Assembly: GCF_051622035.1 (NCBI RefSeq) | Contig: NC_135355.1 | Coordinates: forward strand, 2,790,001 to 2,854,000 | DNA: 64,000 nucleotides | From: Arctopsyche grandis | Lineage: Eukaryota > Arthropoda > Insecta > Trichoptera > Hydropsychidae | Direction of reading: 5' to 3' | In this document: positions 4,277 through 61,668 of the stretch, piece after piece | Layout: every line of letters begins with the position of its first letter | How positions within the stretch are numbered: position 1 is the first letter of the stretch | Made by a program: the position numbers and the translations under genes | The notes under the pieces: generated by a model | Told to the model about the DNA's origin: nothing | Database searches by the model: none | The model's input: only the letters and a program-made list of their open reading frames with translations

Positions 4277-7200
4277 ATGTTTTCACTCAGAGCTTTGTTA
4301 ATTTCTACAATATTTTGGACTTGCAATGCAGCTTCACCTTTTGATATACTATGTGCTTTGAGTGAGTTTTTCTCCGTAATTGTTTATATTATTCATAATA
4401 TTTCACCGTCCTTTTTTCCATAACAATGACGATAGAAAAAATTATCTTCGTAAAACAAGAAAAAAAAAACTATTATATATGTACGTATGTATAATTACAT
4501 AGGTACATATGTACATACATACATATATGTATGTACAGGCTGGTGTGAAGCCAAGTGCAAGCTTATATAAGATGATAGCTTATATCATCACTATAGTATT
4601 TTGGGCACCTATGTATTTTTGTTAATTTTAGCATTTTCATTTTGCATTTTAGCGTTTTAAGTTATTAAAAATGTTCAATTTAACATCTATTTTTATGAAG
4701 AGTTTAATTTTAAATAATAAAAAATTTCGATGAATTTTAATAAAATTTATATACATAAACACAATTCAAATACAACACAACCATTAAAAATAATAGAAAA
4801 ATTCAAAAATGTTTTGAAATTAAAATTACAGTGAAAAAAACATGAATATAAAAATACAAAGACAAAAAATATGAATATAAAAATATAATATCAATTAAAA
4901 TTGATTAAAACTTAACATGGAGCATATTTCTACAGATTCTTTTTTGTGATTCGTGCGACGATCGGTAACAATTATATTGTATTTACTAAAATACCTTTCA
5001 GCATCCACACTATTGACGGGACACCAAATAGATTTTAGAGTGGCACAACCAAACTCTTCATATTTAATTTTTGTTGCTATCAATAATAGTAATATATCCG
5101 GCGTGGATTCCCTTTTTATATTTTCTATTAATTGTCTAAAAAGTGCTGATATCCTTCCTAACATTGAGCCTTTGTTAATACATTAAACAATGGCAGGTTT
5201 CTAAAAAACAAAACTGTTTCTTTAACATTAATATTAGATTTTAAACCTGCCAAAGATGGATTGAATAGTTTACTAATGTTCGGAGGAATAGATTTGTCTC
5301 ATTTAGTCTCGAGTGCGAGTCTAGTTTTAAGACGCTTTTTTGAGCAGCCTTTTGGATACACAGCTCCAACTTTCTTCTTTTGTTTACAGTAGTAGACAAA
5401 AGTAGTTGCTTGGTTTCGACAGGAAAAACACCGTCTATGGTAAAATACAAGCTCTGTTTTATCCTCTCAATTTCTTCACATAATAAATGGGCAAAGGGAT
5501 AGGAAGACCCTTCTAAATTGTCTATTGATTTTATAAATTTTATGCAAATTTCACGTTGATGTATATATTATTCAACAGAAAAATATTTTTATGTATACTT
5601 ATTCACACAGTTCAAAGACAAAATGAAGAATTTTCTACATGTGCAACCAGTAACTGTCAAAACACTTGTCGGTTTCCCAACAGAGCAGATTCTGGATGCA
5701 GTCAAATCTGTACACCTGGATGCGTTTGTTTAAGTGGCTATTTACGAAATTCTCGAAACGTATGCGTACTCTCAGAACAATGTGGTAGGTTTTAACTATT
5801 ATTTCAAATGAAATTTGAATAATTAACGCTACATTAAAATATTAAAATTTGTATTTTTATAGATGTTTTGCCTGAATGTTACGGTTTACAATGTGATTGC
5901 CCGCCAGGATATAAAAAAAATATTTTTAATATGTGTACGCTCGTACCAGTAGTAACAGCGTTAGTCACTTCGAGTAAGTAGAATTATTGTACAGTTCAAC
6001 CTTTTGGATGCCAATTTACGATATATCGTTGTTTGCAGTTTGGCCAGAAACGTCGTTGATGACGTTAAAAGAACTGGTAGAAATATATATTTCAATAGAA
6101 AACAAAGATCGAGTGAATTTCATTTATTAGATGGAATACCCTATTCTTTTGAGTTTTTTTATTTCGACGTGTTTTTTTTAATAACATGAATATGACATTT
6201 TAATATTTTTGGCAATAGTTGATAGTCCGACCTGGCAAAGTCAAACCATTTTGTGTCCTTAATAAAATTGCGACTGTCTTAATATGTGTGATGGAAATGT
6301 TCAATGATAATATTTTTCAGTACTAAGATGCACTGGCCCAAACGAAGTATTTTCCAGATGTGGAAATAACGGCTGTCAACAATCATGCACAAGACGAGAG
6401 ATTAGAAATTGCATTCCAGTATGTTCATCTCCAGGGTGCATTTGCGCGGCGGGATTTGTGAGGAATGCAGCAGGCATTTGCATCTTGCCTTTCTATTGTC
6501 GTAAGGGACGAAAGTATGACTATTTATAAATAAATGAAAATCAAACCTAATATGTAAAATTGAATTTTCAGCATTGATGTGTACTGGAAACAACGAGGTT
6601 TATTCAAATTGCGGAAATGACGGATGCCAGCGCTCTTGTACTAGATTAGACGTTCAAAATTGCATTCCAGTATGCTCTTCTCCAGGATGTGTGTGTTCTA
6701 TTGGATTTGTAAGAGACGCAGCGGGGCAATGCATTTTAAAGCAATTGTGTCGTAAGTGATTTTGAATGGAGCCGTCTCATCAATTATTGTCAAAAAACTG
6801 GAATTTAAGTAGATTTAGTAATAATATGCCGAATGTACATTTTCAGCTCGACCTTTATGTACCGGACTAGATGAAGTAGCCACTGAGTGGGGTGAAAATG
6901 GGTGTCAACCATCTTGTTCCAGATTGACAGTACCGTCAACTTGTATTCCAACGTGCATCCAATCAGGATGTGTCTGTATATTAGGATTAGTCAGAAATTC
7001 ATCAGGAGTTTGCGTGAGACCGTCAGAATGCAGTAAGTGCAACATAAGAGTGCCATAAAATGGATATTGGTTTTACAATCATGATACAAATGATGACAAT
7101 AAATAAAGATCTAATAGTCTGAAATCTTTATCTGCAGCTTTACCGATATGTACTGGAGCAAACGAAGTGGCTAGTGCCTGTGGCCAAGACGGCTGTCAAC

Positions 7201-7323
7201 CGTCTTGCTCTAGATTGACAGTGCCGTCTACATGTGTCCGAGTATGTGTTCGAGCAGGATGCGTTTGTGCAACTGGATTCGTCAGAAATGCATTCGGGGC
7301 ATGCGTAACACCAACACAGTGCC
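4277..7323 (+). CDS. Gene 1, 5' module: signal peptide, half domain and single TIL exons
   Basis: The first exon encodes MFSLRALLISTIFWTCNAAS, a typical cleavable signal peptide, then FDILCAL, whose Cys acts as Cys1 of the domain completed in exon 2. Exon 3 (5863-5973) holds only the C-terminal four-cysteine half of a domain followed by a Val/Thr-rich linker. Exon 4 uses a GTAAGG donor, as in gene 2. Exon 6 (6847-7032) reads GAG TGG GGT where gene 2 has GAG TGT GGT, so Cys2 is replaced by Trp. Exon 7 (7138-7323) has the loop CVRVC, giving Arg at P1 and hence a plausible trypsin-type inhibitor. Each exon has a one-to-one partner in gene 2 (34724-37840). Confidence 0.8.
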
Positions 7324-10300
7324 GTAAGTAACACCAACACAATGCCGTAAATTCACTTTCAGCTATCCCTATATGTGTTGGAGCAAACGAAGTGGTTAGT
7401 GTATTTTATGTACACATCGGGTGTACATAAATTTTCCAGTCTGCGAAAAATTAAAAATTTGTTTCGCCTCTGATGGCGATGATGGCGAGAATCAACTGAG
7501 GTCAAAAAGTGATCGAGCCTTTTCTTTTTTATTCGGGGTTTATTTGTACTTGTACGTTGCTATGTCGAATTTTTATATGTGTGTGTGTTTGAATTTTTAA
7601 TGTTTTTGTTTTCAAATCCTTATTTTATTCTATACATATGTTTATATGTACATATATGTTTGATGATTGGTTGATGTTTGGCGCGAATGGAAGTTCGGTT
7701 GCAATTCGAAGAGGTGAATTTTTTTGTTTTGTTTGCTGGTGATTTAATATACTTACGTCGTAATATTTGGAATTGTTGGTGAGTGTTGAATCTGTTGTTG
7801 CGGGACTTCTGATGATTGCCGATGTAGACGCGAGCGAATTAGAAGTCAACAACAACATGCATGTGGCTGTGAAGAGAAGACGCACAGTTCGCATTCGTCG
7901 CAAATCGAAAAATGCATACAGATACAGGTTTGAAGAATTTGTACTTTAAATTATTTAAATATACACTTGAATAAAAGATGGTTTTCAAACAGATTATAGT
8001 AGAGAGTGGTAGATTGTTCAATTTCAGAACATAAGTACATATGTATGTATGTATATCGTATACATATGTACGTCGTAATTTAAGAATTTGAATAATAGGC
8101 AAATATATCAATTATAGAAAATAAATTTAAGTTGGAATTTTTCCTCTTAGAAAGGTCAAATATGTTGTGCCCACTATTCTGTCCACAACCCTGAACGTAT
8201 CAAGCTGAAAATTTATATTGTATGTATTCTTTATGTACTAACATAGAGCTAATAAGGTTTTGGTCAGAATTCCTAAGCCAGAAGTAATATTTTTTTTAAA
8301 ACAATATTCCAATATTTTATTTTGACCTTTTAAATTATTTTAATGTTTTTGATATTTATTGTGTATAGTAATGATAGTGATTTTAAGTAATAAAAACAAA
8401 TTGAAAAAAAATTGAACAAAATCCGACAACCGGAAGTTGAACTATTGTCTTGTGCAAGTTTCCATACATTTGCGCTCAATTTGTATCGAAAATGCTTAGT
8501 ATTTATCTATTAGTATTTCATAATGCTGCCGGTATGTGTTTACAACATTTGAACAATAAAAGGCCCTCTCAGGGTCCGGGCTTTACTAATAACACTGACC
8601 AACAAAAAAATTACCACAGCGGGGAACTTTTAGAGCCCCTAGAAAATTAACTATTAGTATTTTAAAGCAATAAAAATCACAAGTAATAGAAAAAGCATCC
8701 GACTATTGATTCCAATACTCACTTTTGGCACAGCAATACTGATTTTGATTTTTAAATGCATTTTATTATTACGAAATTATGTTCACAATACATCTTATAT
8801 TGTATGTTTTAATACTGATCATTTTCTATTTTACAATTTTAATTTAATTTGGTTAGTAATCATAGTATTATATTATTCTAATGTTAATAAATTGTAAGCA
8901 TAATAGGAAAAAGAGCTCAAAAACCTATTTACAATTCTTATAAATGCTCATAATACATCTAATACATAATATTAATTAAAGACTCTCTAAAGTCGATGAC
9001 CTAAAGCAGATTGTGTTTAGGTAATCTGTGTTTATACCTGAAGGGTATAGACATTTTGTTGTAATCACCGAGACTCTTCACAAGTGTGTTAGTATGGTTA
9101 TTAGTGATTCTGTCATAGAATCTACTGGTTAGTTTGTTAGTAATGTCTGTAACAAACGGAATATTATATATGGCATGCAGTTTTTTCAGGTTAGTATATA
9201 TGGGTGTATTCAGGTTAGTATATATGCGTTTGGGGTAGCGCCCTTGAAGACTTTATCTGTCAAAACGATCTATATATCCACAACAACAGAGATGATATTC
9301 CGACGTTTGAAAGTCCTGCTGGCTCTTCTTATATTGATGTCACTTTGTCTTTGGGTTTAGATGCAGGTGATATGAAAGATTGGAGGGTTCATTCGGGAGA
9401 AACTCTGAGTGACCATAACTTAATTACTTTCGATGTAAACTTTGATAGTCCTATTAATTTTGTGTCTGGTTTGCCCTTACCTTTTCGTAACGGCACCAAT
9501 CTATCTTGGATAAATTTCAAAACTCGTCTCTGTAATTTCTTTGACATATATTCTGCTGCAAACAGTTGCCCTGATTTTTGTGCTCCCGATTTGTGTGCTT
9601 CTGCAATTAACCTTGCCACTATTAATATAGCACAAGATGTCTTTGGTAGAGTTGGTGCTGTAGGTAGGCGCTCTACTCCTTGGTGGAATGACTACCTGGC
9701 ATCCCTTAAATCCTTAGTCAAAAGGGCTATACGTAAATTACGGTAGGCTAAGCGTCGTGGTGTTGGTCCAGATTTGTTAATGCCCCTTGGTATCGAGGTT
9801 AGAAGAGCTTCTGCACTTTTTAAGCGTCAAATTTTGGTGTCCAAAAAAAAGTCTTGGGAGAATTTTGTTAGCTCGAAAGCAGGGTCGGGACCTTGGGGAC
9901 CAGCTTATAAGGCCATCACTAGGGACCCCGCTTTTATTATGTGTGGAGTTCGTAGTCCTCTTGATGGTCACCTTGCTTTATCTAGTAGTGAAGCGGTTAA
10001 TAATCTTGTGAATGCACTTATCCCTGTTGATCGTTTTGACAATGATCTACCTGCTCACGTTCTTATACGTAATATTGCTTCTTATGTTACTGAACTTAGT
10101 TGCTATGAAGACCTTCCGACTTCGGAGGAAGTTAGTGCGATTTTTAATAACCTGGCTAGGGGTAAGGCTCCTGGAGTTGATATGATAGGCGGAGATATTG
10201 CCAGAGTTGTTTGGTCGGTGGGTAATTTTGAACTTCTCAATGTTTATAGAAATTGTTTTAAATTTGGAACCTTCCCTAGTTGCTGGAAGGTTGGAAAATT

Positions 10301-13300
10301 GTTTGTCATTAAAAAGCACAATACTGATAGACTGGCTAGTGACCCTAAGGCTTATCGCCCTATCAGTTTGTTGCCTATTCTTGGGAAGGTCCTAGAGAGG
10401 TTAATTTCGAGTCGGCTCAATAGTTTCCTTGACGATAACTCTGTTTTATCCGGTGGTCAATTTGGATTTAGATCGGGAAAGTCTACTGTTGATGCAATTC
10501 ACTGTGTCTTGAGGGAGTCTTCGGACTCTCCATCCAAGTATGTAGTTGCTGTTTTGTTGGACGTTGCTGGAGCGTTTGATAATGCCTGGTGGCCCATGCT
10601 ATTGATCAAGTTGCGTCTGCTGGGACTGCATCCGAATTTACTATGCTTACTGCAGAGTTACTTGTCGGATAGGAAATTGGTTTTCGAACTCGGAGGTCAG
10701 GTTGGTTTCAGGGATCTCTCTATTGGATGTCCACAGGGCTCCGTTTTGGGACCTATCCTTTGGAACATTCTCGTCAATGACCTCTTTACAATCAATTTGC
10801 CGGAGGGTTGCAGGTTGGTTGCGTATGCTGATGACATCGTGTTGTTAACGCACGCAAAGTCCCGTGTTGAGATGGAATGTAGAGCTACTGCGGCACTTCA
10901 CCTTCTAGACGATTGGGCCATAATTAACAAACTTTCTTTCTCGCCCTCTAAGTCCAAGTGCTTACTATTAAAAGGTTCTCTTTTTAGAGCCCCTAATATC
11001 AAACTCGGAGACTGTAAGATCAAATTCGTCAACGAGTACACATATTTAGGTGTTGTTCTCGATGTCGGGCTTACATTCAATGGTCATATTGGGAAAGCAT
11101 TAGATAAAGCTAAGGTTTCCTTTGGTCGTATTGGTCGCCTTTGTGGTCGCTCTTGGGGTTTGGGTTTCCATGAAAAACGCTTGGTATACGATGCTGTGTT
11201 TGTGAACTCTTTGACGTATGCATCTAGCATTTGGGGTCATCGTGTCGAATTAAAAACGGTCCGTCGTACATTAAATAGTGGTCAGCGTTTTCCTCTGATC
11301 GCCCTTACCCAGGCTTATCGCACTGCGTCTACTGACTCACTACATATTCTTGCGGGTACATTGCCACTTGACTTGGTCGTCCAAATAAGAGCTGCTCGAG
11401 AAAAACTTCGTGGTGGGTTAGATGCTTCCGTCTCAGGCGTCCTTTTCCGTGCTCCTAATCAGTCACAGTGCGATGATCCTCGATTCTGGCGAAGTTTGAA
11501 GTCTGTTATTTTAAATTGTGCTATTTCGGCTTGGCAACTTAGATGGGATTGTTCCTCTAAAGGCAGACAAACCTATTTGTTTTTTCCGAGGGTCACTTCG
11601 CGCCTTGAGCGTGATTGGCTGTCGCCTAGTTTTTGGACCAGTCAATTTTTAACTGGTCATGGCCACTTTAACGGCAAGCTCGCATCTATGGGCTTGGTAT
11701 CTGAATCCTTTTGTCCGTGTTCTTTTCCGGAGCAGGATGCAGATCATATTCTGTGGTCCTGTCCTGGGTTGGAGGCTGAGAGGAGGGTTCTGCTGGACAG
11801 CGTCAGGGGTTCTCTCATTGGCCCCCTACATCATGGGGATCTAATAATGAGTAAAGCATCGTTTAGAGCTTTCGAAAAGTTCGCGGAATGCTTTGGGAAG
11901 CTGTGTTCCCCTGGATGCTACGACTCCACTTAATTGCAAAAGCATTTATGTGTTGATTTATTAATATTTTTTTTTATATTATATTCTGTAAATGTGTGTG
12001 TGTGTGAGTGTGCGTTTGCTTTTTAGGTGAGTGTATGTATTTGTGGTTTATGTGTGTGTGTATATGTGTGTGTGTGTTTGTGTGTGTGTGTATATATATG
12101 TGTGTGTGTATGTGTGTGTGTTTATGTGCTTGCGTGCTTATGCACACATAATCATGCGTACATGTATGTTTACTTGAGGTGTGCGTTCATTCGCACGGCA
12201 CATCTCAGGTTTTGTTTCCTACCGCATGCGCGCTTTATGTGTTCATGCGTTGTTGTTAATTTTGTACTTGGTTATGTACAGTGTGGTTTTTTTATTAGAA
12301 CAGTGATGTGCGGTTGTTCTTGTGCGATATTCATGAACAACCGTCTCGTTCTCCGACGAAAGGGTCTCTTGGACTGTATTCGTCGGGGGGGTGGTGGCCT
12401 CATGTTGAGGGCTTTAAGGGTCAAATTACGTGACCTTTAAAGCGGGCTTAGTATGGGTGTATTATAAATTATTTTTAGGGATTTATTTTGTATTACTTGG
12501 AGCTTGGAAAGCTTAGTATTCGAGGCGTTATTCCATACAGGTGAAGCATAGGTTAATAATGGTAATATGAGCGCGCGATATAATTTTATTTTATTTAGCA
12601 TTGATAAAGAACTATGGCGATTAAATGTTGGATATATTGAGGATATACCCCGCATCGCCTTGCATTTCGCTGCCTCAATGTGAGGTGCCCATCTCATTCT
12701 TTTATCAAACGTTACACCTAAATATTTTATTACTGACTGCCATTTCAGACTTTCTCCAGAGGGAATTTTCAGATCTGAACTTGGCTTATGCTTACTAACA
12801 CTAAAGAATATGGCGTCTGTTTTGGTTTGATTAATTTGAATTTTCCACTTAGTGAAGTGTTCAGTCATTGCTTTAATTGCAAATTCAAGATTTTTAAGAA
12901 TAGTGTCTGGTTTTTTGCTACTTGTGAAGCAAGCTGTATCATCTGCATATAGGGCTTTGTGACAGTTTTTTGGAATAGGTATGTCATTTATATATATGGA
13001 GAACAAGAGTGGGCCAAGCAAGCTCCCCTGCGGAACGCCAGCTGCGATTATTTTTGGAGACGATAATTCATTATTTACGCTAACCACTAGCTTTCTACGA
13101 GTTAAGTACGATTTGATGATGAGAATTAGGTAGTTTTGTATTTTGTTAATAAGGAGCTTATGAATGAGTCCATCGTGCCAAAGCCGGTATGTTCAATATA
13201 TAATTTTGTTTTGTGACTTTCTAATATTCCTCAAATACATAGATAAAGTCATGGGTTGGTCACACCCGAATTTTTTTTTATTGATATCATTGAAAGCATC

Positions 13301-16300
13301 GAAAGTCTACTTTCACCCTGAGCACTGTGAATTGACGTTTTTATGCGCTTTAAAGATGAAAAACTAATGTAAAAAAATAATGAACTAAAATATAAATAAA
13401 ATAAAAAGGCAATTTAAACAATATTTCAACAACAAATGTACAAATGTGTGGGATTTCATGATTAAAATTTAAATCAAAAGATTTCAATGATTGGGATTTC
13501 ATGATTAAAATTTAAATCAAAAAGATTTCAATGATTGGGATTTCAATCAAAATTATGATCCCAGCTTAAACTAATGTAATTAAATATATGTATATCTAAG
13601 GGGCTTGGGTCGCATAAGTACGTATGCGGTATGTGATAATTAGAGGTAGGATAGTCACAGTGCTATCCATTGTTCGGCAAACCTTTAACAATACATTTAC
13701 AACCTTTGAACAATACACGGCCCCCTCAGGCTCCGGTGACTAGTGATAATATAAAAGCGGAATGTGCTTTGTCTTAGACGTAACGCTTGTACGTTTTACT
13801 ATTGTTTACTATGCAGGTTTGGAAGCGAATCCAGAAAACACAACTTCTCACAATACTCGCGCACACAGGCGTATAAACCGATTTCCGAACTTCGCTAACT
13901 CCTTGAACAACGTCATTTGCCAATTGTATGTACATCACTCTTTTTGTATTCATTAATATATTATATGTACATAAATTTTTATCATTTTTACGAAAAATTT
14001 AAGGGAACAGCGTGTTCCCTTTGTTCCAATGACGGCACGCCACTGATATGTACTATGTGTACATATATACATGTATATCCGTACTTAAGTACACACACAC
14101 ACCTAAACAGAAAACGCACACTCACACAAACACATTCACAGATTGTTCAGACTACTTGTCTGATGGTCGGCTTTCATGGCCTTACGACCCACGATTTGGC
14201 CGATATATTTTTGTGCTCGCTACCCTGACATGCAACGGCCAGCGGACAGTTGTTCGATAACAGTTGGCGCGTAAACTTTGGTGTTTACGAAGCCCTTCGC
14301 TTCTTGCCACTGACGTCCATCTTCTGTAGAACGAAGCAAACAATAAATTATAAAAAAAACCAGCACCGGCAAACCTCCACCAAGTCATCTCCTCCAAGTC
14401 ACCTCCACCAGATTAGTTCAACCAAAATGCAACTACCAACAACCGCCAAACACCAACACCACACCACCATACACCCACGCACGACAAAGCATAAACGTGA
14501 TTGATACGAGGGTTGCTCTTTAAGTTTCTGGCCTAATAATGAAAAAACAAATATTTATCATCGAAATTGGTTTTATTGTTTTTCCAAACATTCTCCATGA
14601 AGATTAATACACTTTTGCATGCGTTGGAACCAATTTTCGAAGCACTTTTTCCAATCCGATTGAGCTACCTCCATAACAAGCGTTTTGAAGGCATCAACCG
14701 CTTCTTTGGGCGTCAAAAATCGTTGACCACGTAATTTATTTTTGATGTGCGGAAATAAAAATAAGTCATTGGGTGCCAAATATGGGCTGTACGAGGGATG
14801 ACCCATCAATTCGGTGTGTTGAGTGCTCAAATAGGCAGTTATTTGAGTTGATTTGTGAGAGCTCACATTGATGGAGAATGCTCGTCTTTGGCGGCGAGCG
14901 CGATGAATGATATTAAATATATTGATCTCTCGTAAAACTCAATTTCAGCTCTACTTCCGTGCTTTGGAGATAACGAAGTGCCCACTATTTCCTATCAAGA
15001 CGGGTGCGAACCGAGCTGCATCAATTACATAGTGCCGCCAAGTTGTGGCCCCGTATTTAATACTACAACAGGCTGTATTTGTGCATCTGGGTTCGTGAGA
15101 AATTCAATGGGAGCTTGCGTGGATAAGAGGCAGTGCCGTAAGTGCCACATGGCTCGAAGTAAAAAGCCTCGAGCTCGATGACTGATATTGTATATATTGA
15201 CCTGTCGTAAAACTCACTTTCAGCTCTACCTTCGTGCTCTGGAGCTAACGAGATGGCCACTACTTGCGGCCAAGACGAGTGTCAACCGACTTGCACCAAT
15301 TTCATCGTACCGTCCAGTTGTGTCCCTGTATGTAATACGGCCGGCTGCGTTTGTGTATTTGGATTCCTGAGAAATTTAATAGGAGAATGCGTGCCCATGT
15401 CACAATGCCGTAAGAGCCACGTGATTTGATTTTAAAAGCCTCGAGCGCGATGAATGATATTAATTATATTGATCTCTCGTAAAACTCACCTTCAGCTCTA
15501 CTTCCGTGCTTTGGAGATAACGAAGTGCCCACTATTTCCTATCAAGACGGGTGCGAACCGAGTTGCAACAATTACATGGTGCCGCCAAGTTGCGGCCCCG
15601 TATTTAATACTACAACAGGCTGCGTATGTGCATCTGATTTCGTGAGAAATTTAATAGGAGAATGCGTGCCCATGTCGCAATGCCGTAAGTGCTACATGAC
15701 TCGAATTTCATAGCCTCGAGCAAGATGTCAGATATTGAATATATTGACCTTAAGTAAAACTCACTTTCAGCTCTACCAACGTGCCCTGGACCTAACGAGG
15801 TGGCCACTACCTGCGGCCAAAACGAGTGTCAACCGACTTGCACCAATTTCATCGTACCGTCCAGTTGTGTCCCTGTATGTAATACGGCAGGCTGCGTTTG
15901 TGTATTTGGATTCCTGAGAAATTTAATAGGAGAATGCGTGCCCATGTCACAATGCCGTAAGAGCCACGTGATTTGATTTTAAAAGCCTCGAGCGCGATGA
16001 CTGATATTGATTATATTGATATCTCGTAAAACTCACTTTCAGCTCTACTTCCGTGCTTTGGAGATAACGAAGTGCCCACTATTTCCTATCAAGACGGGTG
16101 CGAACCGAGTTGCAACAATTACATGGTGCCGCCAAGTTGCGGCCCCGTATTTAATACTACAACAGGCTGCGTTTGTGCATCTGAATTCGTGAGAAATTTA
16201 ATAGGAGAATGCGTGCCCATGTCGCAATGCCGTAAGTGCTACATGACTCGAATTTCATAGCCTCGAGCAAGATATCAGATATTGAATATATTGACCTTAC

Positions 16301-19300
16301 GTAAAATTCAATTTCAGCTCTACCAACGTGCTCTGGACCTAACGAGGTGGCCACTACTTGCGGTCAAGACGAGTGTCAACCGACTTGCACCAATTACATC
16401 GTGCCATCAAGTTGTGTCCCAGTATGTAATAGGGCAGGCTGTGTTTGTGCATCTGGATTCGTGAGAAATTCAATGGGAGCTTGCGTGGATAAGTCGCAGT
16501 GCCGTAAGTGCCACATGGCTCGAACTGAAAAGCCTCGAGCTCGATGGCTGATATTGTTATTATTGACCTGTCGTAAAACTCACTTTCAGCTCTACCTACG
16601 TGCTCTGGAGCTAATGAGGTGGCCACTACCTGCGGCCAAGACGAGTGTCAACCGACTTGCACCAATTACATCGTACCGTCCAGTTGTGTCCCTGTATGTA
16701 ATACGGCAGGCTGCGTTTGTGCATTTGGATTCTTGAGAAATTTAATAGGAGAATGCGTGCCTATGTCACAATGCCGTAAGAGCCACATGAATTGAATTTA
16801 AAAGCCTCGAGCACGATTAATGATATTAAATATATCGAACTCTCGTAAAAATCGCTTTCAGCTCTACTTCCGTGCTTTGGAGATAACGAAGTGGCCACTA
16901 CTTGTGGTCAAGACGGGTGTCAACCGAATGTCACGGATGAATGATTTTTATTATCTTGACCTGTCTTATAACAATTTTTAGCTCTACCTACGTGCTCTGG
17001 AGCTAACGAGGCGGCTACTACCTGCGGCCAAGACGAGTGTCAACCGACTTGCACCAATTTCATCGTACCGTCCAGTTGTGTCCCTGTATGTAATACGGCA
17101 GGCTGCGTTTGTGTATTTGGATTCCTGAGAAATTTAATAGGAGAATGCGTGCCCATGTCACAATGCCGTAAGAGCCACGTGATTTGATTTTAAAAGCCTC
17201 GAGCGCGATGACTGATATTGATTATATTGATATCTCGTAAAACTCACTTTCAGCTCTACTTCCGTGCTTTGGAGATAACGAAGTGCCCACTATTTCCTAT
17301 CAAGACGGGTGCGAACCGAGTTGCAACAATTACATGGTGCCGCCAAGTTGCGGCCCCGTATTTAATACTACAACAGGCTGTATTTGTGCATCTGGGTTTG
17401 TGAGAAATTCAATGGGAGCTTGCGTGGATAAGAGGCAGTGCCGTAAGTGCCACATGGCTCGAAGTAAAAAGCCTCGAGCTCGATGACTGATATTGTATAT
17501 ATTGACCTGTCGTAAAACTCACTTTCAGCTCTACCTTCGTGCTCTGGAGCTAACGAGATGGCCACTACTTGCGGCCAAGACGAGTGTCAACCGACTTGCA
17601 CCAATTTCATCGTACCGTCCAGTTGTGTCCCTGTATGTAATACGGCCGGCTGCGTTTGTGTATTTGGATTCCTGAGAAATTTAATAGGAGAATGCGTGCC
17701 CATGTCACAATGCCGTAAGAGCCACGTGATTTGATTTTAAAAGCCTCGAGCGCGATGAATGATATTAATTATATTGATCTCTCGTAAAACTCACCTTCAG
17801 CTCTACTTCCGTGCTTTGGAGATAACGAAGTGCCCACTATTTCCTATCAAGACGGGTGCGAACCGAGTTGCAACAATTACATGGTGCCGCCAAGTTGCGG
17901 CCCCGTATTTAATACTACAACAGGCTGCGTATGTGCATCTGATTTCGTGAGAAATTTAATAGGAGAATGCGTGCCCATGTCGCAATGCCGTAAGTGCTAC
18001 ATGACTCGAATTTCATAGCCTCGAGCAAGATGTCAGATATTGAATATATTGACCTTAAGTAAAACTCACTTTCAGCTCTACCAACGTGCCCTGGACCTAA
18101 CGAGGTGGCCACTACCTGCGGCCAAAACGAGTGTCAACCGACTTGCACCAATTTCATCGTACCGTCCAGTTGTGTCCCTGTATGTAATACGGCAGGCTGC
18201 GTTTGTGTATTTGGATTCCTGAGAAATTTAATAGGAGAATGCGTGCCCATGTCACAATGCCGTAAGAGCCACGTGATTTGATTTTAAAAGCCTCGAGCGC
18301 GATGAATGATATTAATTATATTGATCTCTCGTAAAACTCACCTTCAGCTCTACTTCCGTGCTTTGGAGATAACGAAGTGCCCACTATTTCCTATCAAGAC
18401 GGGTGCGAACCGAGTTGCAACAATTACATGGTGCCGCCAAGTTGCGGCCCCGTATTTAATACTACAACAGGCTGCGTATGTGCATCTGATTTCGTGAGAA
18501 ATTTAATAGGAGAATGCGTGCCCATGTCGCAATGCCGTAAGTGCTACATGACTCGAATTTCATAGCCTCGAGCAAGATGTCAGATATTAAATATATTGAC
18601 CTTAAGTAAAACTCACTTTCAGCTCTACCAACGTGCCCTGGACCTAACGAGGTGGCCACTACCTGCGGCCAAAACGAGTGTCAACCGACTTGCACCAATT
18701 TCATCGTACCGTCCAGTTGTGTCCCTGTATGTAATACGGCGGGCTGCGTTTGTGTATTTGGATTCCTGAGAAATTTAATAGGAGAATGCGTGCCCATGTC
18801 ACAATGCCGTAAGAGCCACGTGATTTGATTTTAAAAGCCTCGAGCGCGATGAATGATATTAATTATATTGATCTCTCGTAAAACTCACTTTCAGCTCTAC
18901 TTCCGTGCTTTGGAGATAACGAAGTGCCCACTATTTCCTATCAAGACGGGTGCGAACCGAGTTGCAACAATTACATGGTGCCGCCAAGTTGCGGCCCCGT
19001 ATTTAATACTACAACAGGCTGTATTTGTGCATCTGGGTTCGTGAGAAATTCAATGGGAGCTTGCGTGGATAAGAGGCAGTGCCGTAAGTGCCACATGGCT
19101 CGAAGTAAAAAGCCTCGAGCTCGATGACTGATATTGTATATATTGACCTGTCGTAAAACTCACTTTCAGCTCTACCTTCGTGCTCTGGAGCTAACGAGAT
19201 GGCCACTACTTGCGGCCAAGACGAGTGTCAACCGACTTGCACCAATTTCATCGTACCGTCCAGTTGTGTCCCTGTATGTAATACGGCCGGCTGCGTTTGT

Positions 19301-22300
19301 GTATTTGGATTCCTGAGAAATTTAATAGGAGAATGCGTGCCCATGTCACAATGCCGTAAGAGCCACGTGATTTGATTTTAAAAGCCTCGAGCGCGATGAA
19401 TGATATTAATTATATTGATCTCTCGTAAAACTCACCTTCAGCTCTACTTCCGTGCTTTGGAGATAACGAAGTGCCCACTATTTCCTATCAAGACGGGTGC
19501 GAACCGAGTTGCAACAATTACATGGTGCCGCCAAGTTGCGGCCCCGTATTTAATACTACAACAGGCTGCGTATGTGCATCTGATTTCGTGAGAAATTTAA
19601 TAGGAGAATGCGTGCCCATGTCGCAATGCCGTAAGTGCTACATGACTCGAATTTCATAGCCTCGAGCAAGATGTCAGATATTGAATATATTGACCTTAAG
19701 TAAAACTCACTTTCAGCTCTACCAACGTGCCCTGGACCTAACGAGGTGGCCACTACCTGCGGCCAAAACGAGTGTCAACCGACTTGCACCAATTTCATCG
19801 TACCGTCCAGTTGTGTCCCTGTATGTAATACGGCAGGCTGCGTTTGTGTATTTGGATTCCTGAGAAATTTAATAGGAGAATGCGTGCCCATGTCACAATG
19901 CCGTAAGAGCCACGTGATTTGATTTTAAAAGCCTCGAGCGCGATGAATGATATTAATTATATTGATCTCTCGTAAAACTCACTTTCAGCTCTACTTCCGT
20001 GCTTTGGAGATAACGAAGTGCCCACTATTTCCTATCAAGACGGGTGCGAACCGAGTTGCAACAATTACATGGTGCCGCCAAGTTGCGGCCCCGTATTTAA
20101 TACTACAACAGGCTGCGTTTGTGCATCTGAATTCGTGAGAAATTTAATAGGAGAATGCGTGCCCATGTCGCAATGCCGTAAGTGCTACATGACTCGAATT
20201 TCATAGCCTCGAGCAAGATATCAGATATTGAATATATTGACCTTACGTAAAATTCAATTTCAGCTCTACCAACGTGCTCTGGAGCTAATGAGGTGACCAC
20301 TACCTGCGGCCAAGACGAGTGTCAACCGACTTGCACCAATTTCATCGTACCGTCCAGTTGTGTCCCTGTATGTAATACGGCAGGCTGCGTTTGTGTATTT
20401 GGATTCCTGAGAAATTTAATAGGAGAATGCGTGCCCATGTCACAATGCCGTAAGAGCCACGTGATTTGATTTTAAAAGCCTCGAGCGCGATGACTGATAT
20501 TGATTATATTGATATCTCGTAAAACTCACTTTCAGCTCTACTTCCGTGCTTTGGAGATAACGAAGTGCCCACTATTTCCTATCAAGACGGGTGCGAACCG
20601 AGTTGCAACAATTACATGGTGCCGCCAAGTTGCGGCCCCGTATTTAATACTACAACAGGCTGCGTTTGTGCATCTGAATTCGTGAGAAATTTAATAGGAG
20701 AATGCGTGCCCATGTCGCAATGCCGTAAGTGCTACATGACTCGAATTTCATAGCCTCGAGCAAGATATCAGATATTGAATATATTGACCTTACGTAAAAT
20801 TCAATTTCAGCTCTACCAACGTGCTCTGGACCTAACGAGGTGGCCACTACTTGCGGTCAAGACGAGTGTCAACCGACTTGCACCAATTACATCGTGCCAT
20901 CAAGTTGTGTCCCAGTATGTAATAGGGCAGGCTGTGTTTGTGCATCTGGATTCGTGAGAAATTCAATGGGAGCTTGCGTGGATAAGTCGCAGTGCCGTAA
21001 GTGCCACATGGCTCGAACTGAAAAGCCTCGAGCTCGATGGCTGATATTGTTATTATTGACCTGTCGTAAAACTCACTTTCAGCTCTACCTACGTGCTCTG
21101 GAGCTAATGAGGTGGCCACTACCTGCGGCCAAGACGAGTGTCAACCGACTTGCACCAATTACATCGTACCGTCCAGTTGTGTCCCTGTATGTAATACGGC
21201 AGGCTGCGTTTGTGCATTTGGATTCTTGAGAAATTTAATAGGAGAATGCGTGCCTATGTCACAATGCCGTAAGAGCCACATGAATTGAATTTAAAAGCCT
21301 CGAGCACGATTAATGATATTAAATATATCGAACTCTCGTAAAAATCGCTTTCAGCTCTACTTCCGTGCTTTGGAGATAACGAAGTGGCCACTACTTGTGG
21401 TCAAGACGGGTGTCAACCGAATGTCACGGATGAATGATTTTTATTATCTTGACCTGTCTTATAACAATTTTTAGCTCTACCTACGTGCTCTGGAGCTAAC
21501 GAGGCGGCTACTACCTGCGGCCAAGACGAGTGTCAACCGACTTGCACCAATTTCATCGTACCGTCCAGTTGTGTCCCTGTATGTAATACGGCAGGCTGCG
21601 TTTGTGTATTTGGATTCCTGAGAAATTTAATAGGAGAATGCGTGCCCATGTCACAATGCCGTAAGAGCCACGTGATTTGATTTTAAAAGCCTCGAGCGCG
21701 ATGACTGATATTGATTATATTGATATCTCGTAAAACTCACTTTCAGCTCTACTTCCGTGCTTTGGAGATAACGAAGTGCCCACTATTTCCTATCAAGACG
21801 GGTGCGAACCGAGTTGCAACAATTACATGGTGCCGCCAAGTTGCGGCCCCGTATTTAATACTACAACAGGCTGCGTTTGTGCATCTGAATTCGTGAGAAA
21901 TTTAATAGGAGAATGCGTGCCCATGTCGCAATGCCGTAAGTGCTACATGACTCGAATTTCATAGCCTCGAGCAAGATGTCAGATATTGAATATATTGACC
22001 TTACGTAAAATTCAATTTCAGCTCTACCAACGTGCTCTGGACCTAACGAGGTGGCCACTACTTGCGGCCAAGACGGGTGTCAACCGAGTTGCACCAATTA
22101 CATCGCGCCGTCCAGTTGCGTCTCGGTTTGTAATACGGCAGGCTGTATTTGTGCATCTGGGTTCGTGAGAAATTCAATGGGAGCTTGCGTGCCCATGTCG
22201 CAATGCCGTAAGTGCCATATGACTCAAATTTTCACGGGTGGTACACGGATGAATGATTTTTAATATCTTGACCTGTCATAAAACAAATTTTCAGCTCTAC

Positions 22301-24852
22301 TTTCGTGCTCTGGAACTAACGAGGTGGCCACTACTTGCGGCCAAGACGGGTGTCAACCGAGTTGCACCAATTACATTGTGCCGTCCACTTGCGTCCCTGA
22401 TTGTAATACGGCAGGCTGTATTTGTGCAACTGGATTCGTGAGAAATTTAATGGGAGCTTGCGTACCCATGTCGCAATGCCGTAAGTGCCATATGACTCAA
22501 ATTTTCACGGGTGGTACACGGATGAATGATTTTTAGTATCTTGACCTGTCTTAAAACAATTTTCAGCTCTACCGACGTGCTCTGGATCTAACGAGGTGGC
22601 CACTACATGCGGCCAAGACGGGTGTCAACCGAGTTGCACCAATTACATTGTGCCGACTACTTGCGTCCCTGTTTGTAATACGGCAGGTTGTATTTGTGCA
22701 ACTGGATTCGTGAGAAATTCAATGGGAGCTTGCGTGCCCATGTCGCAATGCCGTAAGTGCCATATGACTCAAATTTTCACGGGTGGTACACGGATGAATG
22801 ATTTTAAGTATCTTGACCTGTCTTAAAACAATTTTCAGCTCTACCTACGTGCTCTGGATCTAACGAGGTGGCCACTACATGCGGCCAAGACGGGTGTCAA
22901 CCGAGTTGCACCAATTACATTGTGCCGACTACTTGCGTCCCTGTTTGTAATACGGCAGGTTGTATTTGTGCAACTGGATTCGTGAGAAATTCAATGGGAG
23001 CTTGCGTGCCCATGTCGCAATGCCGTAAGTGCCATATGACTCAAATTTTCACGGGTGGTACACGGATGAATGATTTTTAATATCTTGACCTGTCATAAAA
23101 CAAATTTTCAGCTCTACCTTCGTGCTCTGGAACTAACGAGGTGGCCACTACTTGCGGCCAAGACGGGTGTCAACCGAGTTGCACCAATTACATTGTGCCG
23201 TCCACTTGCGTCCCTGATTGTAATACGGCAGGCTGTATTTGTGCAACTGGATTCGTGAGAAATTTAATGGGAGCTTGCGTACCCATGTCGCAATGCCGTA
23301 AGTGCCATATGACTCAAATTTTCACGGGTGGTACACGGATGAATGATTTTTAGTATCTTGACCTGTCTTAAAACAATTTTCAGCTCTACCGACGTGCTCT
23401 GGATCTAACGAGGTGGCCACTACATGCGGCCAAGACGGGTGTCAACCGAGTTGCACCAATTACATTGTGCCGACTACTTGCGTCCCTGTTTGTAATACGG
23501 CAGGTTGTATTTGTGCAACTGGATTCGTGAGAAATTCAATGGGAGCTTGCGTGCCCATGTCGCAATGCCGTAAGTGCCATATGACTCAAATTTTCACGGG
23601 TGGTACACGGATGAATGATTTTTAATATCTTGACCTGTCATAAAACAAATTTTCAGCTCTACCTTCGTGCTCTGGAACTAACGAGGTGGCCACTACTTGC
23701 GGCCAAGACGGGTGTCAACCGAGTTGCACCAATTACATTGTGCCGACTACTTGCGTCCCTGTTTGTAATACGGCAGGTTGTATTTGTGCAACTGGATTCG
23801 TGAGAAATTCAATGGGAGCTTGCGTGCCCATGTCGCAATGCCGTAAGTGCCATATGACTCAAATTTTCACGAGTGGTACACGGATGAATGATTTTTAGTA
23901 TCTTGACCTGTCTTAAAACAAATTTTCTGTGTTCTGGAATTAACGAGGTAGTCACTACTTATGTACCTACCATCAGGCAATATATTTTGTACATATTTTA
24001 ATAATTTTCAGCTCGGCCTACATGCACTGGAGCAAATCAAATGGCCACCACGTGTGGTGATGATGGATGTCTACCGTCATGCTCCAGATTGACTGTACCG
24101 ACTACCTGTGTCCCTGTATGCAATACAGCAGGTTGCGTTTGTTCAACTGGATTCGTCAAAAACTCTGCAGGTGTTTGTGTGCTACCAAGGGATTGTCGTA
24201 AGTAAAATACTACTTCTTCACTGTTGAATGATATACATACTTTGTTTTACCGAAACTTTAATCGCTAGACATTCATACTTCTGTACAAAGTGTTGACTTG
24301 AGGCAAGCTGTTACGGAAATTAAAAGAAAACATGGTTTTATTGTGGATTTTAGCATGCGGTTTAAACGAAATATATTCAACTTGTGGCGACCGAGTTTGT
24401 GAGAGAACATGTGTGGTTCGAAACCCTGGAGGTGGTTGTGTTCCTGTATGTGGTCCTCTAGGAGGCTGCGTTTGTGACACCGGATTCTTAAGAAATATAG
24501 CAACTGGCACGTGTATTCGACCAAGAAATTGTCCTGCATTCTGTGAGTTTTTAATAATTTATACATGATATATAACAGGATGAATAAAGAGACTTATTTT
24601 CCTTTAGTTCGTATTGGCACTGCATCGAATGCCCTTTGCACCCGATTAAATGAAATACGATCAAACTGTGGGGATGATGGTTGTCAACCAACGTGCAGCA
24701 GACCAAACACTAAAGATTGCATGCCCAAATGTGGAAAATCATCATGTGTTTGTGCTTCAGGATTTGTGAGAGACGAATCAACCTACGAGTGTATTGATTT
24801 GAACGAGTGTTCTTCATTGAGTAAGTTGGATAAAATATTTCTACATCAATAG
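4277..24852 (+). CDS. TIL gene 1: giant secreted multi-TIL-domain protein, partly damaged
   Basis: Hand splicing gives a signal-peptide exon (4277-4361), a first TIL exon (5611-5784), a half-domain exon (5863-5973), single-domain exons (6321-6500, 6572-6751, 6847-7032, 7138-7323), 32 array exons (14949-23842) and three 3' exons (24012-24197, 24354-24542, 24608-24820). All introns are phase 1. The sum is about 2,558 codons and 40 TIL domains. TIL domains usually act as secreted serine-protease inhibitors with five disulfides. Here most loops have Pro where the P1 residue should be, so inhibition is doubtful for most domains. Damage: the exon at 7363 is cut short by a 7.5-kb insertion block, two array exons are truncated, and the terminal exon present in gene 2 is missing. 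Without it, reading past 24820 ends at TAG 24850-24852. Skipping any broken exon keeps the frame, so a product is possible but unproven. Confidence 0.7.
4895..5510 (-). mobile_element. hAT transposase C-terminal remnant in gene 1 intron 1
   Basis: The minus strand encodes SVDAERYFSKYNIIVTDRR followed by VEICSMLSFN, a good match to the C-terminal dimerisation region of hAT transposases as I know it. A second open stretch (5241-5450) continues upstream but contains stops. It lies entirely within the 1.25-kb first intron (4362-5610). No ends or target duplication are seen. It may be a piece of the same lineage as 2860-3740, but the order of parts is not colinear. Confidence 0.6.
7363..7403 (+). 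pseudogene. Gene 1 exon 8, cut off after 41 bases
   Basis: After a normal ttcactttcag acceptor, this stretch matches the start of gene 2 exon 8 (37921-38106) up to GAAGTGGTTAGTG, then homology stops abruptly. The rest of the domain and its donor are gone. Just before it, the end of exon 7 and its donor are partly duplicated: acaccaacacagtgccgtaa is followed by an acaccaacacaatgccgtaa copy. As all flanking introns are phase 1, the broken exon can be skipped without a frameshift. Confidence 0.8.
7404..8137. other. Unrecognised inserted sequence in gene 1
   Basis: No gene or known element is recognised in this first part of the insertion block. Short open stretches on both strands (about 7625-8111) look like chance. 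The sequence shows no detectable match elsewhere in the window. Confidence 0.3.
8138..8537 (-). repeat. Dispersed repeat family B, inverted, interrupted copy
   Basis: Matches the reverse complement of the 5' half of the family B copy at 26607-27060. Landmarks are tttcctcttagaaaggtcaa, a tgcgctcaatttgtatcgaa block and an end in cataatgctgccggtatgt. Homology resumes at 13182-13275 with the remaining terminal part. The gap between holds the Jockey and R1-clade insertion. Confidence 0.7.
9231..11933 (+). pseudogene. Endonuclease/reverse transcriptase ORF of the R1-clade LINE, one stop
   Basis: A single reading frame of 901 codons runs from the 5' truncation point (GSALEDFICQND) to TAA at 11931-11933, broken only by a TAG at 9744-9746. 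The RT catalytic box is YADD. Compared with full R1-type ORF2 proteins (roughly 1,000 residues or more), the N-terminal endonuclease half is missing. The protein would act in target-primed reverse transcription if complete. As it stands the copy is inactive. Confidence 0.85.
11990..12180. repeat. TG-rich simple sequence in the LINE 3' region
   Basis: Long runs of (TG)n with (TATATG) interruptions. Apparent open frames across it are low-complexity and not genes. Confidence 0.9.
13182..13275 (-). repeat. Dispersed repeat family B, 5' end, inverted
   Basis: Ends with catgggttggtcacacccga, the reverse complement of the family B left end, and continues the copy at 8138-8537 that was split by the Jockey insertion. 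It begins with gccggtatgt, which also occurs at 8528-8537. Confidence 0.7.
13440..13556. repeat. Short tandem repeat, unit about 43 bp
   Basis: Two near-perfect copies and a partial third of a unit starting gggatttcatgattaaaatt and ending tttcaatgatt. Nothing else is recognised in 13276-13439. Confidence 0.85.
13557..14504. other. Unrecognised inserted sequence in gene 1
   Basis: No gene is recognised. A short phrase, acaacctttgaacaatacac followed by ggccccctcagg, at about 13695-13735 is similar to 8545-8580, so part of this is repetitive. 14345-14500 is rich in CACC and could be coding in origin, but I cannot assign it. Confidence 0.3.
14505..14880 (-). mobile_element. mariner transposon, 3' end only
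   Basis: The minus strand of 14573-14866 encodes the C-terminal part of a mariner transposase. It contains HPSYSPYLAPNDLFLFP with the third catalytic Asp of the DD34D triad in LAPND, then LRGQRF and WFQRMQKCINLHGE. The left end shows TA followed by cgagggttgctctttaagtt, a mariner-type terminal inverted repeat. The rest of the element, including the first two catalytic Asp residues, is absent. The right edge runs into the first array intron at about 14890. Confidence 0.85.
14949..23842 (+). CDS. Gene 1 central TIL array: 32 intact one-domain exons
   Basis: Exon starts: 14949B 15224A 15496B 15771A 16043B 16318A' 16590A 16982A 17254B 17529A 17801B 18076A 18348B 18623A 18895B 19170A 19442B 19717A 19989B 20264A 20536B 20811A' 21083A 21475A 21747B 22022A'' 22295C 22567C 22839C 23112C 23384C 23657C. 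A, A', A'' and C exons are 186 nt, B exons 189 nt. Acceptors are ttcag|CT, donors C|GTAAGN and introns mostly about 86 bp. A and C types have all ten TIL cysteines (NEVATTCGQDGCQPSC, then CVPVC). B reads NEVPTISYQDGC and CGPVFNTTTGC, so Cys2 becomes Ser and Cys6 becomes Phe. Introns are as conserved as exons, pointing to unequal exchange of whole exon+intron units. All exons are phase 1-1, so copy-number change never shifts the frame. Confidence 0.85.
16862..16928 (+). pseudogene. Truncated array exon with deletion junction, copy 1
   Basis: A normal acceptor leads into a 67-nt start of a TIL exon. It begins like type B (CFGDNEV) but keeps Cys2 (ATTCGQDGCQP). It then jumps straight into intron sequence (tcacggatgaatgattttta) with loss of the second half and of the donor. 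It is a fusion of an exon with the next intron by an internal deletion. It is presumably skipped. Confidence 0.85.
21355..21421 (+). pseudogene. Truncated array exon with deletion junction, copy 2
   Basis: Same truncated exon and same junction as at 16862-16928, 4,493 bp away. The deletion therefore predates the segmental duplication of this part of the array. Confidence 0.85.
23928..23975 (+). pseudogene. Relic TIL exon at the end of the gene 1 array
   Basis: A 45-50-nt stump, TGTTCTGGAATTAACGAGGT and following bases, is all that remains of an array unit. Its acceptor has lost AG (ttttctgtg instead of ttttcagctgtg). The same stump, with the acceptor still present, is at 45551-45595 in gene 2. 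Confidence 0.8.
24012..24852 (+). CDS. Gene 1, 3' module: three TIL exons, no terminal exon
   Basis: Exons 24012-24197, 24354-24542 and 24608-24820 match gene 2 exons at 45632, 45976 and 46234 one for one. The first has GDDGCLPSC and CVPVC. The second is a diverged domain starting ACGLNEIYSTC. The third has CGDDGCQPTC and the loop CMPKC, with ten cysteines. Homology with gene 2 ends shortly after the last donor (about 24870). No terminal exon is found before gene 2. Retaining the last intron adds ten codons after the split Ser codon and stops at 24850-24852. Confidence 0.8.
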
Positions 24853-34723: not shown

Positions 34724-47047
<12,324 letters not shown>

Positions 47048-47853: not shown

Positions 47854-50559
47854 CTAAAGCAGATTGTGTTTAGGTAATCTGTGTTTATACCTGAAGGGTA
47901 TAGACATTTTGTTGTAATCACCGAGACTCTTCACAAGTGTGTTAGTATGGTTATTAGTGATTCTTTCATAGAATCTACTGGTTAGTTTGTTAGTAATGTC
48001 TGTAACAAACGGAATATTATATATAGCATGCAGTTTTTTCAGGTTAGTATATATGGGTGTATTATAAATTATTTTAAGGGATTTATTTTGTATTACTTGG
48101 AGCTTGGAAAGGTTAGTATTCGAGGCGTTATTCCATACAGGTGAAGCATAGGTTAATAATGGTAATATGAGCGCGCGATATAATTTTATTTTATTTAGCG
48201 TTGATAAAGAACTATGGCGATTAAATATTGGATATATTGAGGATATACCCTGCATCGCCTTGCATTTCGCTGCCTCAATGCGAGGTGCCCATCTCATTCT
48301 TTTATCAAACGTTACTCCTAAATATTTTATTACTGACTGCCATTTCAGACTTTCTCCAGAGGGGATTTTCAAATCTGAACTTGGCTTATGTTTTCTAACA
48401 CTAAAGAATATGGCGTCTGTTTTGGTTTGATTAATTTGAATTTTCCACTTAGTGAAGTGTTCAGTCATTGTTTTAATTGCAAATTCAAGATTTTTAAGAA
48501 TAGTGTCTGGTTTTTTGCTACTTGTGAAGCAAGCTGTATCATCTGCATATAGGGCTATGTGACAGTTTTTTGGAATAGGTATGTCATTTATATATATGGA
48601 GAACAAGAGTGGGCCAAGCAAGCTCCCCTGCGGAACGCCAGCTGCGATTATTTTTGGAGACGATAATTCATTATTTACGCTAACCACTAGCTTTCTACGA
48701 GTTAAGTACGATTTGATGATGAGAATTAGGTAGTTTGGTATTTTGTTAATAAGGAGCTTATGAATGAGTCCATCGTGCCAAACCGTGTCGAAGGCCTTTT
48801 CTATGTCGAGACATACCATTCCGGTACTTCTCTTCATATTAAAGTTCTTTGTCACGTGTTCAGTTAGTCTTGTTAGTTGTTGGGTCGTGGAATGTCCAGT
48901 GCGAAATCCAAATTGTTCATTTATTAATTTCTTATTTACGACTTTAAGTAAACGTGTGTAGATTATTTTTTCCAGAATTTTTGAAAGCGTGCAAAGTAAG
49001 CTAATGGGTCGATAATTGGCCGGGTTTTTTGAGCTTTTATCGGGCTTAAGTATGGGAATTACGTTGGCTGTTTTCCAGTATTCTGGGAAATACCCGGTGA
49101 GTAAACATGCGTTGAATATTTTAGATAGTGAGACTAAAGCTTTAAATGGAAGTTGTTTGATTGTGATGTTATCTATTGAATCTCGCCCAGGTGCCTTTTT
49201 ATTTTTTAAATTACGTATTATATTTTGGATTTCACACGGATGCACCAATTTTATATTTTTAGTACTGTTAGTGGGAGTTTTTGTGATGATTTTAATGGAC
49301 CGGTTGACTTTATTATGCGTTGGTATGTGATTGTAATGTTGTGTGAGTGTGTGATGTTTTTGGAAGGATTTTGATAATAGTTCTGCTTTGTCGCAATCAC
49401 GCGTCACTGAGATTCCTGCATCATCTAATGGAGGAATCGAGTTTTTTGTCCTGCGAATCGCTTTAGCTAATTTCCATAGAGAGCCATCAACTGAGCTCAA
49501 TTTTTCTAATTTTTTAGACCAAGCTTCATTTTTGATTTCTTTGATTCTAATTTTAATTTGATATGTGAGCTTATTAATTAATGTTTTCAATGCTGGATTA
49601 TTTGATGTTTGCCAAATTTTACGCAGTTTATTTTTACTTTTAATTAGATTTGCAACAAAGTCAGTTATCTCTAATTTGTGTTCAATGTATTGTGTCTTAG
49701 GTATGTGAAGGTGTTTGGATCGAGTTATTGATTCCGTTAGGTGTATTATGGAGCTGTCGATTTCGGTTTTGTTTGTGAGTGTGGTAGAAGTTAGAATGGT
49801 TTGTTCATTTATGTATGACTTGAACTCTCGCCAGTTAGCTCTCCCGTAATCCCAACTATGCTTGATGATTTCCTCGGGTTTCCCGTCGATTGAGAAGATG
49901 ATCGGGAGATGATCAGACGACAGGGTTTGAAGGGCATTTGGTGTCGATATTTTTGGGCAGTTCTTGACGAGGACAAGATCTAGTGTGGATGGTTGTGAGT
50001 TATTTGTGGGATAGTGTGTGTATGTATCCGGATGAAGTAAGATTGTATCTGTTAGTTGAATGTATTTATAAAGAGTTGTGCCTTGTAGGTCAGTGTTTAC
50101 GCAACTCCATAACGGATGTTTGGCATTAAAGTCACCAGCTACCACTACCGAACTACCAATGTTAAATATTTTGTTAAGATCGGATGCCAATAATCGTTTT
50201 TGGGGAGGATTGTAAGCGGATGCTACTATGTGATGGGTGTTGTTAATTGTTAGTTCGATGGCGGTTAGTTCTAAATTTTTTAGTGGCGGGGTTATTACGC
50301 GACAATGTTTAATTGACGATTTTATAAAAATAGCAACTCCCCCTCCATGCTGTTCTCGGTCTTCGCGATAGCAGTTAAAGTTAGGTAGGTTAATACGGAT
50401 ATGAGGTTTTAAGAAGGTCTCGGAGATTAAAACTATGTCAACACAGTACTCACCGATCGCCGACTCTAGTTCGTCAATCTTATTCTTAAGTCCACGAGCA
50501 TTCCAAGCTAGAATGTTCAGTCGCCTCCCGTTAATCAAAGACATCGAGATATTCGACAA
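47854..50559 (-). CDS. Jockey ORF2: endonuclease and reverse transcriptase
   Basis: A 901-residue protein. The N-terminal AP-type endonuclease begins LNILAWNARGLKNKI, with the VLISETFL, VAGDFNAKHPLW and SSDHLPIIF motifs in order. The central reverse transcriptase has NYRPISLL, CLDIEKAFDTVWHDGL, GVPQGSLLGPLLFSIYIND and ALYADDTACF (catalytic Asp pair). The C-terminal part has YLGVTFDKRMRW and LTYASPVWNN. It would nick target DNA and copy the element's RNA in place. Domain order and length are usual for Jockey. No inactivating change is visible. Confidence 0.93.
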   Translation of the reverse strand: MSNISMSLINGRRLNILAWNARGLKNKIDELESAIGEYCVDIVLISETFLKPHIRINLPNFNCYREDREQHGGGVAIFIKSSIKHCRVITPPLKNLELTAIELTINNTHHIVASAYNPPQKRLLASDLNKIFNIGSSVVVAGDFNAKHPLWSCVNTDLQGTTLYKYIQLTDTILLHPDTYTHYPTNNSQPSTLDLVLVKNCPKISTPNALQTLSSDHLPIIFSIDGKPEEIIKHSWDYGRANWREFKSYINEQTILTSTTLTNKTEIDSSIIHLTESITRSKHLHIPKTQYIEHKLEITDFVANLIKSKNKLRKIWQTSNNPALKTLINKLTYQIKIRIKEIKNEAWSKKLEKLSSVDGSLWKLAKAIRRTKNSIPPLDDAGISVTRDCDKAELLSKSFQKHHTLTQHYNHIPTHNKVNRSIKIITKTPTNSTKNIKLVHPCEIQNIIRNLKNKKAPGRDSIDNITIKQLPFKALVSLSKIFNACLLTGYFPEYWKTANVIPILKPDKSSKNPANYRPISLLCTLSKILEKIIYTRLLKVVNKKLINEQFGFRTGHSTTQQLTRLTEHVTKNFNMKRSTGMVCLDIEKAFDTVWHDGLIHKLLINKIPNYLILIIKSYLTRRKLVVSVNNELSSPKIIAAGVPQGSLLGPLLFSIYINDIPIPKNCHIALYADDTACFTSSKKPDTILKNLEFAIKTMTEHFTKWKIQINQTKTDAIFFSVRKHKPSSDLKIPSGESLKWQSVIKYLGVTFDKRMRWAPRIEAAKCKAMQGISSIYPIFNRHSSLSTLNKIKLYRALILPLLTYASPVWNNASNTNLSKLQVIQNKSLKIIYNTPIYTNLKKLHAIYNIPFVTDITNKLTSRFYERITNNHTNTLVKSLGDYNKMSIPFRYKHRLPKHNLL

Positions 50560-61480: not shown

Positions 61481-61668
61481 GAGTGGGTGGCGGAAAGTCA
61501 AACATATAAGGCAACTGGCTATTTTAGGTAATTTGGAAAAGGTTATTGGAAATATTTTTCACCATGCAAAGTTTCAAAACGATCGAAAGAGTGTAGAAAT
61601 TTTAGCTCAATCGGTTGCGAAAGCAAACATAAAAGAGCTTTGTAATATAAATTTCACTTTGTTCACAT

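Follow-up and report, generated by a model that had tools for sequence, protein, structure and literature searches.

A 64,000-nucleotide stretch of the genome of the caddisfly Arctopsyche grandis (contig NC_135355.1, positions 2,790,001 to 2,854,000; hereafter the window, whose own coordinates are used throughout and refer to the + strand unless marked) carries on its + strand two paralogous multi-exon genes and additional exons, all encoding TIL domains. In the exon array of gene 1, eleven domains lack the two cysteines that form one of the five disulfides of a canonical TIL domain, which raises the question of how such a variant arose and spread, and whether it is a folded domain with a role or one that is drifting. 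We give an even chance to the reading that these variant domains, termed B, retain the TIL fold, have a single origin within a secreted protein of the zonadhesin-like, multi-TIL kind, and were amplified afterwards, the array being mainly structural or protective.

An array of ten- and eight-cysteine TIL domains

Gene 1 extends over ~5.6–24.8 kb and gene 2 over ~35.9–46.4 kb, and both include an array in which small exons recur every ~272 bp. The gene 1 array consists of 32 regular exons (14949–23842): 21 A exons of 186 nucleotides encoding ten cysteines (spanning 15224..23842) and 11 B exons of 189 nucleotides encoding eight, with a divergent TIL exon beyond them at 24012. The B exons lie at 14949..15137, 15496..15684, 16043..16231, 17254..17442, 17801..17989, 18348..18536, 18895..19083, 19442..19630, 19989..20177, 20536..20724 and 21747..21935. 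All 32 regular exons, the 11 B exons included, have phase 1-1 boundaries, an AG acceptor and a GT donor, and together they splice into a frame without a stop.

Every B exon encodes NEVPTISYQDGC and CGPVFNTTTGC. The second cysteine (C2) is replaced by Ser and the sixth (C6) by Phe in all 11, the remaining eight cysteines are retained, and one additional residue lies between positions 6 and 7 compared to A. The earlier note on this DNA had described 11 such exons among 32 intact ones and named 2-6 as the lost disulfide; its exon starts are all correct, as are the residues at C2 and C6, and the pair agrees with the pattern 1-7, 2-6, 3-5, 4-10 and 8-9 printed in PMC10004685 (this and the other papers cited enter as excerpts). 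Thus none of the 11 B exons conforms to the ten-cysteine, five-disulfide definition of the domain, although the one B exon scored against the TIL profile (Pfam PF01826; 14951–15136) reached 31 bits against a curated cut-off of 24.5. Of the TIL domains in the window, 79 were scored (domain E ≤ 1e-9 and >50 residues, leaving out weaker or shorter matches such as exons 1203, 2673, 5601, 35914, 46853 and 60975 and the truncated copies described below), and of these 66 have ten cysteines, 11 have eight (all B) and two have nine. In one further gene 1 exon, 6847–7032, Trp replaces C2 while no other cysteine is lost, so that their number is odd; its gene 2 counterpart at 37364 keeps C2.

The spliced product of the gene 1 array with its 33 exons is 2056 residues long and contains exactly 11 N-X-S/T sequons, one NTT in each B domain immediately after the lost C6 and none in the other 22 exons. 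Over the whole window a sequon occurs in 12 of 56 regular TIL exons, these being the 11 B exons and exon 6847. If P1 is taken as the second residue after C5, following mutagenesis of the silkworm inhibitors BmSPI38 and BmSPI39, 68 of the 77 scored domains, those of B among them, have Pro there (the domains at 53782 and 60728 depart from the C5-xxx-C6 pattern and were given no P1 call), and the Asn of the B sequon occupies P3'. Arg stands at P1 in TIL exons 7138–7323 of gene 1 and 37655–37840 of gene 2, whose proteins are identical and whose DNA differs by one synonymous change.

Origin and spread of the B exons

The 11 B copies comprise five nucleotide sequences and four proteins. Their core, which runs through C7, exists as three haplotypes: one in 14949 alone, one common to 17254 and 18895, and one in the remaining eight. 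The B region contains exact repeats at shifts of 547 to 5704 bp. The longest is a 1559-bp block at 15822..17380 that has an exact second copy at 20315–21873, and together the repeats show that the B copies were spread by block duplication of multi-exon units. The 3' parts of different B exons match different A exons, and there has therefore also been internal exchange between exons.

Eight of the ten intervals from one B exon to the next contain a single A exon, while the other two contain three A exons, a truncated exon among them. The chance of finding no adjacent B pair with 11 B exons placed randomly among 25 is 3e-4, although the copies are not independent draws because they were spread by block duplication. 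The alternation of A and B domains reported in the earlier note is therefore present, but as a by-product of the duplication of multi-exon blocks.

The direction of change is suggested by a truncated exon, T, present in two copies (16862..16930 and 21355..21423). T has the B-type N-terminus (LLPCFGDNEV), followed by TTCGQDGC with C2 in place, and then breaks into intron sequence without a splice donor. Its start is identical to that of B over 32 exon bases, and on the 63 bases available from T the two group together with 100% ultrafast bootstrap support. Because T groups with B yet keeps C2, the B N-terminus was probably formed first and C2 lost afterwards, the alternative being gene conversion between A and B. 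The introns upstream of T and B differ at 10–13 of 86 positions (Fisher p 0.02–0.06 compared to the identical exon starts), and this contrast hints at constraint on the exon sequence.

Gene 2 (35890..46436) is the paralogue of gene 1, with 86% and 90% identity between upstream exons, and its array (40650–45464) contains only ten-cysteine domains. In a rooted tree restricted to exons of the window, B and T stand beside the combined A exons of genes 1 and 2. The synonymous divergence (dS) between B and A cores is 0.28–0.60, above the pooled dS of 0.079 for eight unique gene 1/gene 2 exon pairs. On account of this placement and divergence B may be older than the gene duplication, gene 2 having lost it, although short sequences underlie the comparison. 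At 7363–7401 lies an exon start that matches the intact gene 2 exon at 37921 and breaks off at 7401.

Comparison with known inhibitors and the role of the array

The earlier note named no known description of the two-domain A-B repeat unit. TIL domains in which C2 and C6, and no other cysteines, are missing have been published and assayed in Bombyx (PMC10004685). BmSPI38 and BmSPI39 keep the other eight cysteines, as B does, and have a similarly hydrophobic C6 site (Leu, by translation of the mutagenesis primers printed there, compared to Phe in B). They inhibit the microbial proteases subtilisin, proteinase K and Aspergillus protease, but not trypsin or chymotrypsin. Unlike B they are separate proteins, the loss being described for one TIL domain each, with Gly or Ala rather than Pro at P1, and the excerpted text does not describe them as alternating with ten-cysteine domains within one gene. 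In the tree of window exons B falls with the ten-cysteine exons of its own array, and we infer that its loss of C2 and C6 was probably independent of that in BmSPI38 and BmSPI39.

Further eight-cysteine TIL inhibitors are ACB-TIL of Ostrinia (PMC9149172, where a TIL protein without two cysteines is compared to BmSPI38/39), CvT-TIL of Cotesia and BmFPI-F, which resemble B in cysteine number (the excerpts do not spell out the lost pair for each) and differ in having one TIL domain each. According to PMC3278429, silkworm TIL domains carry either four or five disulfides, and one silkworm protein, BmSPI48, has four TIL domains. In other folds, typical and disulfide-deficient domains occur together in LEKTI, in the Kazal inhibitor EPI1 (PMC1236909, where the two kinds of domain adjoin) and in the 7C/6C domains of potato Pin-II inhibitors (PMC3073943, with paired cysteine loss in one domain), and here too the lost cysteines are bonded partners; these folds are unrelated to TIL, and Pin-II branches show Ka/Ks >1, in contrast to the neutral-like ratio of B. 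The closest likeness to gene 1 as a whole is with the zonadhesin-like silk proteins of moths and caddisflies (PMC9684489, PMC9745057, PMC11092239), which are cysteine-rich, built of multiple TIL or EGF-like repeats and encoded in gene clusters, all features that the window shares. Their larger forms are read as duplicates of shorter ones and the excerpts make no mention of eight-cysteine beads. Loss of the 2-6 disulfide is a kind of change already known. Its combination with the sequon and the alternating array appears to be new: in the open PMC literature searched we noticed no description of an array alternating eight- and ten-cysteine TIL domains, nor of a TIL domain with a sequon where C6 has been lost. 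The locus is less surprising than it might appear because the silkworm cases are published and the duplication is recent.

From the exon anatomy, copy history, sequon and P1 residue, which are read directly from the DNA, and from a modelled fold, the history and role of gene 1 may be pieced together as follows. Gene 1 would be spliced to give a long protein, secreted and made of TIL beads in tandem, zonadhesin-like or multi-TIL as in moth and caddisfly silk. One bead lineage, B, would have lost the 2-6 disulfide in a single event, after a B-type N-terminus with C2, as in T, already existed, and would have gained Phe, a large side chain, at the old C6, one loop residue, and the N-T-T sequon at P3' of the would-be inhibitory loop. 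Unequal exchange of multi-exon blocks would then have carried B to 11 places, and A and B exons would have traded their 3' halves. Pro occupies P1 in A and B alike, and a glycan at P3', if the sequon is used, would crowd a bound protease; we therefore favour a mainly structural or protective disulfide-rich secretion over a set of strong inhibitors of the trypsin type.

Two more specific proposals concern the B loop. The first, which we put forward only tentatively, is a swap of disulfide for glycan, in which a large hydrophobic contact, together with an N-glycan at P3', would stand in for the 2-6 clamp of the inhibitory loop. The loop would then serve as a glycosylated surface, structural or for a ligand, shown 11 times, mostly alternating with ten-cysteine beads, in one polymer-like secreted protein. 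The second, which we consider unlikely but worth stating, is that B inhibits microbial subtilisin-like proteases as BmSPI38 and BmSPI39 do, with A doing otherwise and the array acting as a multivalent antimicrobial inhibitor. The shared loss of C2 and C6 and the comparable C6 site speak for it, as does EPI1, in which the atypical, not the typical, Kazal domain inhibits subtilisin (PMC1236909). Its Pro at P1 can be read either way: all BmSPI39 P1 mutants, A56P included, inhibit subtilisin and elastase, but A56P and G54P are weaker than wild type, so that Pro weakens inhibition without abolishing it (PMC10004685). However, the B sequon falls within the canonical contact loop, and restoring the two cysteines left the specificity of BmSPI38 and BmSPI39 unchanged (PMC10004685).

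Predicted fold and selection

The predicted model of B is a retained TIL fold, aligning over its full length with solved TIL structures (8hwu and 1ccv, probability 1.00 for each, none at E ≤ 0.001). A sequence search of the PDB with one B exon returned a single match (E 0.33), while a profile of 31 window domains drew 15 different sequences at E ≤ 0.1, every one of which bears the name of a TIL-type inhibitor, a nematode anticoagulant, a mucin or IMPI. Protein searches gave no candidate sharing three 5-residue words with one B exon; six proteins among 55 candidates for the alignment of 31 window domains, with C2 and C6 present in all by eye; and one match among 16 candidates for a spliced B-A-B-A unit, a 223-residue protein of Colias eurytheme (37% identity, with 62% of the query covered). 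In viral_contigs 37 pattern matches were found and none was confirmed as a relative, and the window has no Rfam match at gathering scores.

It is doubtful, in our view, that the B domains are drifting under weak constraint, or have no function, and owe their spread to unequal crossing-over, but several results are compatible with this. The branch leading to B has 17 nonsynonymous and seven synonymous core changes (16 or 17 nonsynonymous, as setting the gap one codon early makes Asn38-to-Thr appear as a change), which is indistinguishable from neutrality (p = 0.64). In three A-A pairs pooled the counts are 14 and 17 and neutrality is rejected (p = 0.0005), the difference between the B branch and these pairs giving p = 0.10. 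The earlier note had named equal rates at the two classes of site as a refutation of its reading, and the B branch comes close to this. Its argument from paired loss to a selected, folded domain is weak, for two random cysteine losses fall on disulfide partners with probability 0.14 (core) or 0.11 (whole exon); the part of it that stands is the fold in the predicted model. Simulated neutral evolution of the core avoids a stop in 0.51 of cases, and avoids one with at most two core cysteines lost in 0.21; exon 6847 of gene 1, moreover, lacks C2 alone.

Set against drift, exactly one partner pair is lost without a stop in only 0.02 of neutral core simulations. The corresponding whole-exon value, 0.0035, is overstated, since B and A exons have exchanged tails, and for this reason the whole-exon simulation was dropped as the main test in favour of the core. 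The intact splice sites of all 11 B exons, the identity of T and B exon starts beside diverged introns (barring gene conversion), and a ratio of nonsynonymous to synonymous rates (dN/dS) of 0.59 in the eight unique gene 1/gene 2 exon pairs (below 1 at p = 0.04) also argue against it. No two of the three B core haplotypes differ by more than five changes, two nonsynonymous and three synonymous, a small sample. The simulations lend modest support to a kept fold, well short of what the earlier note drew from the paired loss. That an assembly artefact lies partly behind the number and order of repeats is very improbable: exact repeats of 300–1559 bp are hard to assemble, but the many B-A differences and the five distinct B sequences leave B itself real and only its copy number questionable.

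Neighbouring elements

An open reading frame resembling a transposase remnant (14573–14938, − strand; DDE_3 E 0.025, under the Pfam cut-off), presumably mariner-like, stops 10 bases short of the first B exon. Reverse transcriptase reading frames of non-LTR type (Pfam RVT_1) lie at 9747–11933 (+), 47854–50574 (−) and 61651–63228 (+), and a fragment at 12452–13186 is 98% identical to 48052–48785. Beyond gene 2, a TIL-like exon at 53782–53967 has nine cysteines and lacks the usual C5-xxx-C6 spacing, and more ten-cysteine TIL exons of the same cluster occupy 55440–60901.

Implications

In the B domains nature has removed both cysteines of one disulfide from a small cysteine-rich domain, with possible compensation by Phe, a loop residue and a sequon, and a truncated relative retains C2. 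Provided that B is expressed, having both kinds of bead in one chain would give an internal control for the role of the 2-6 bridge. The array also illustrates how unequal exchange can quickly give a rare domain variant a widespread and regularly alternating appearance.
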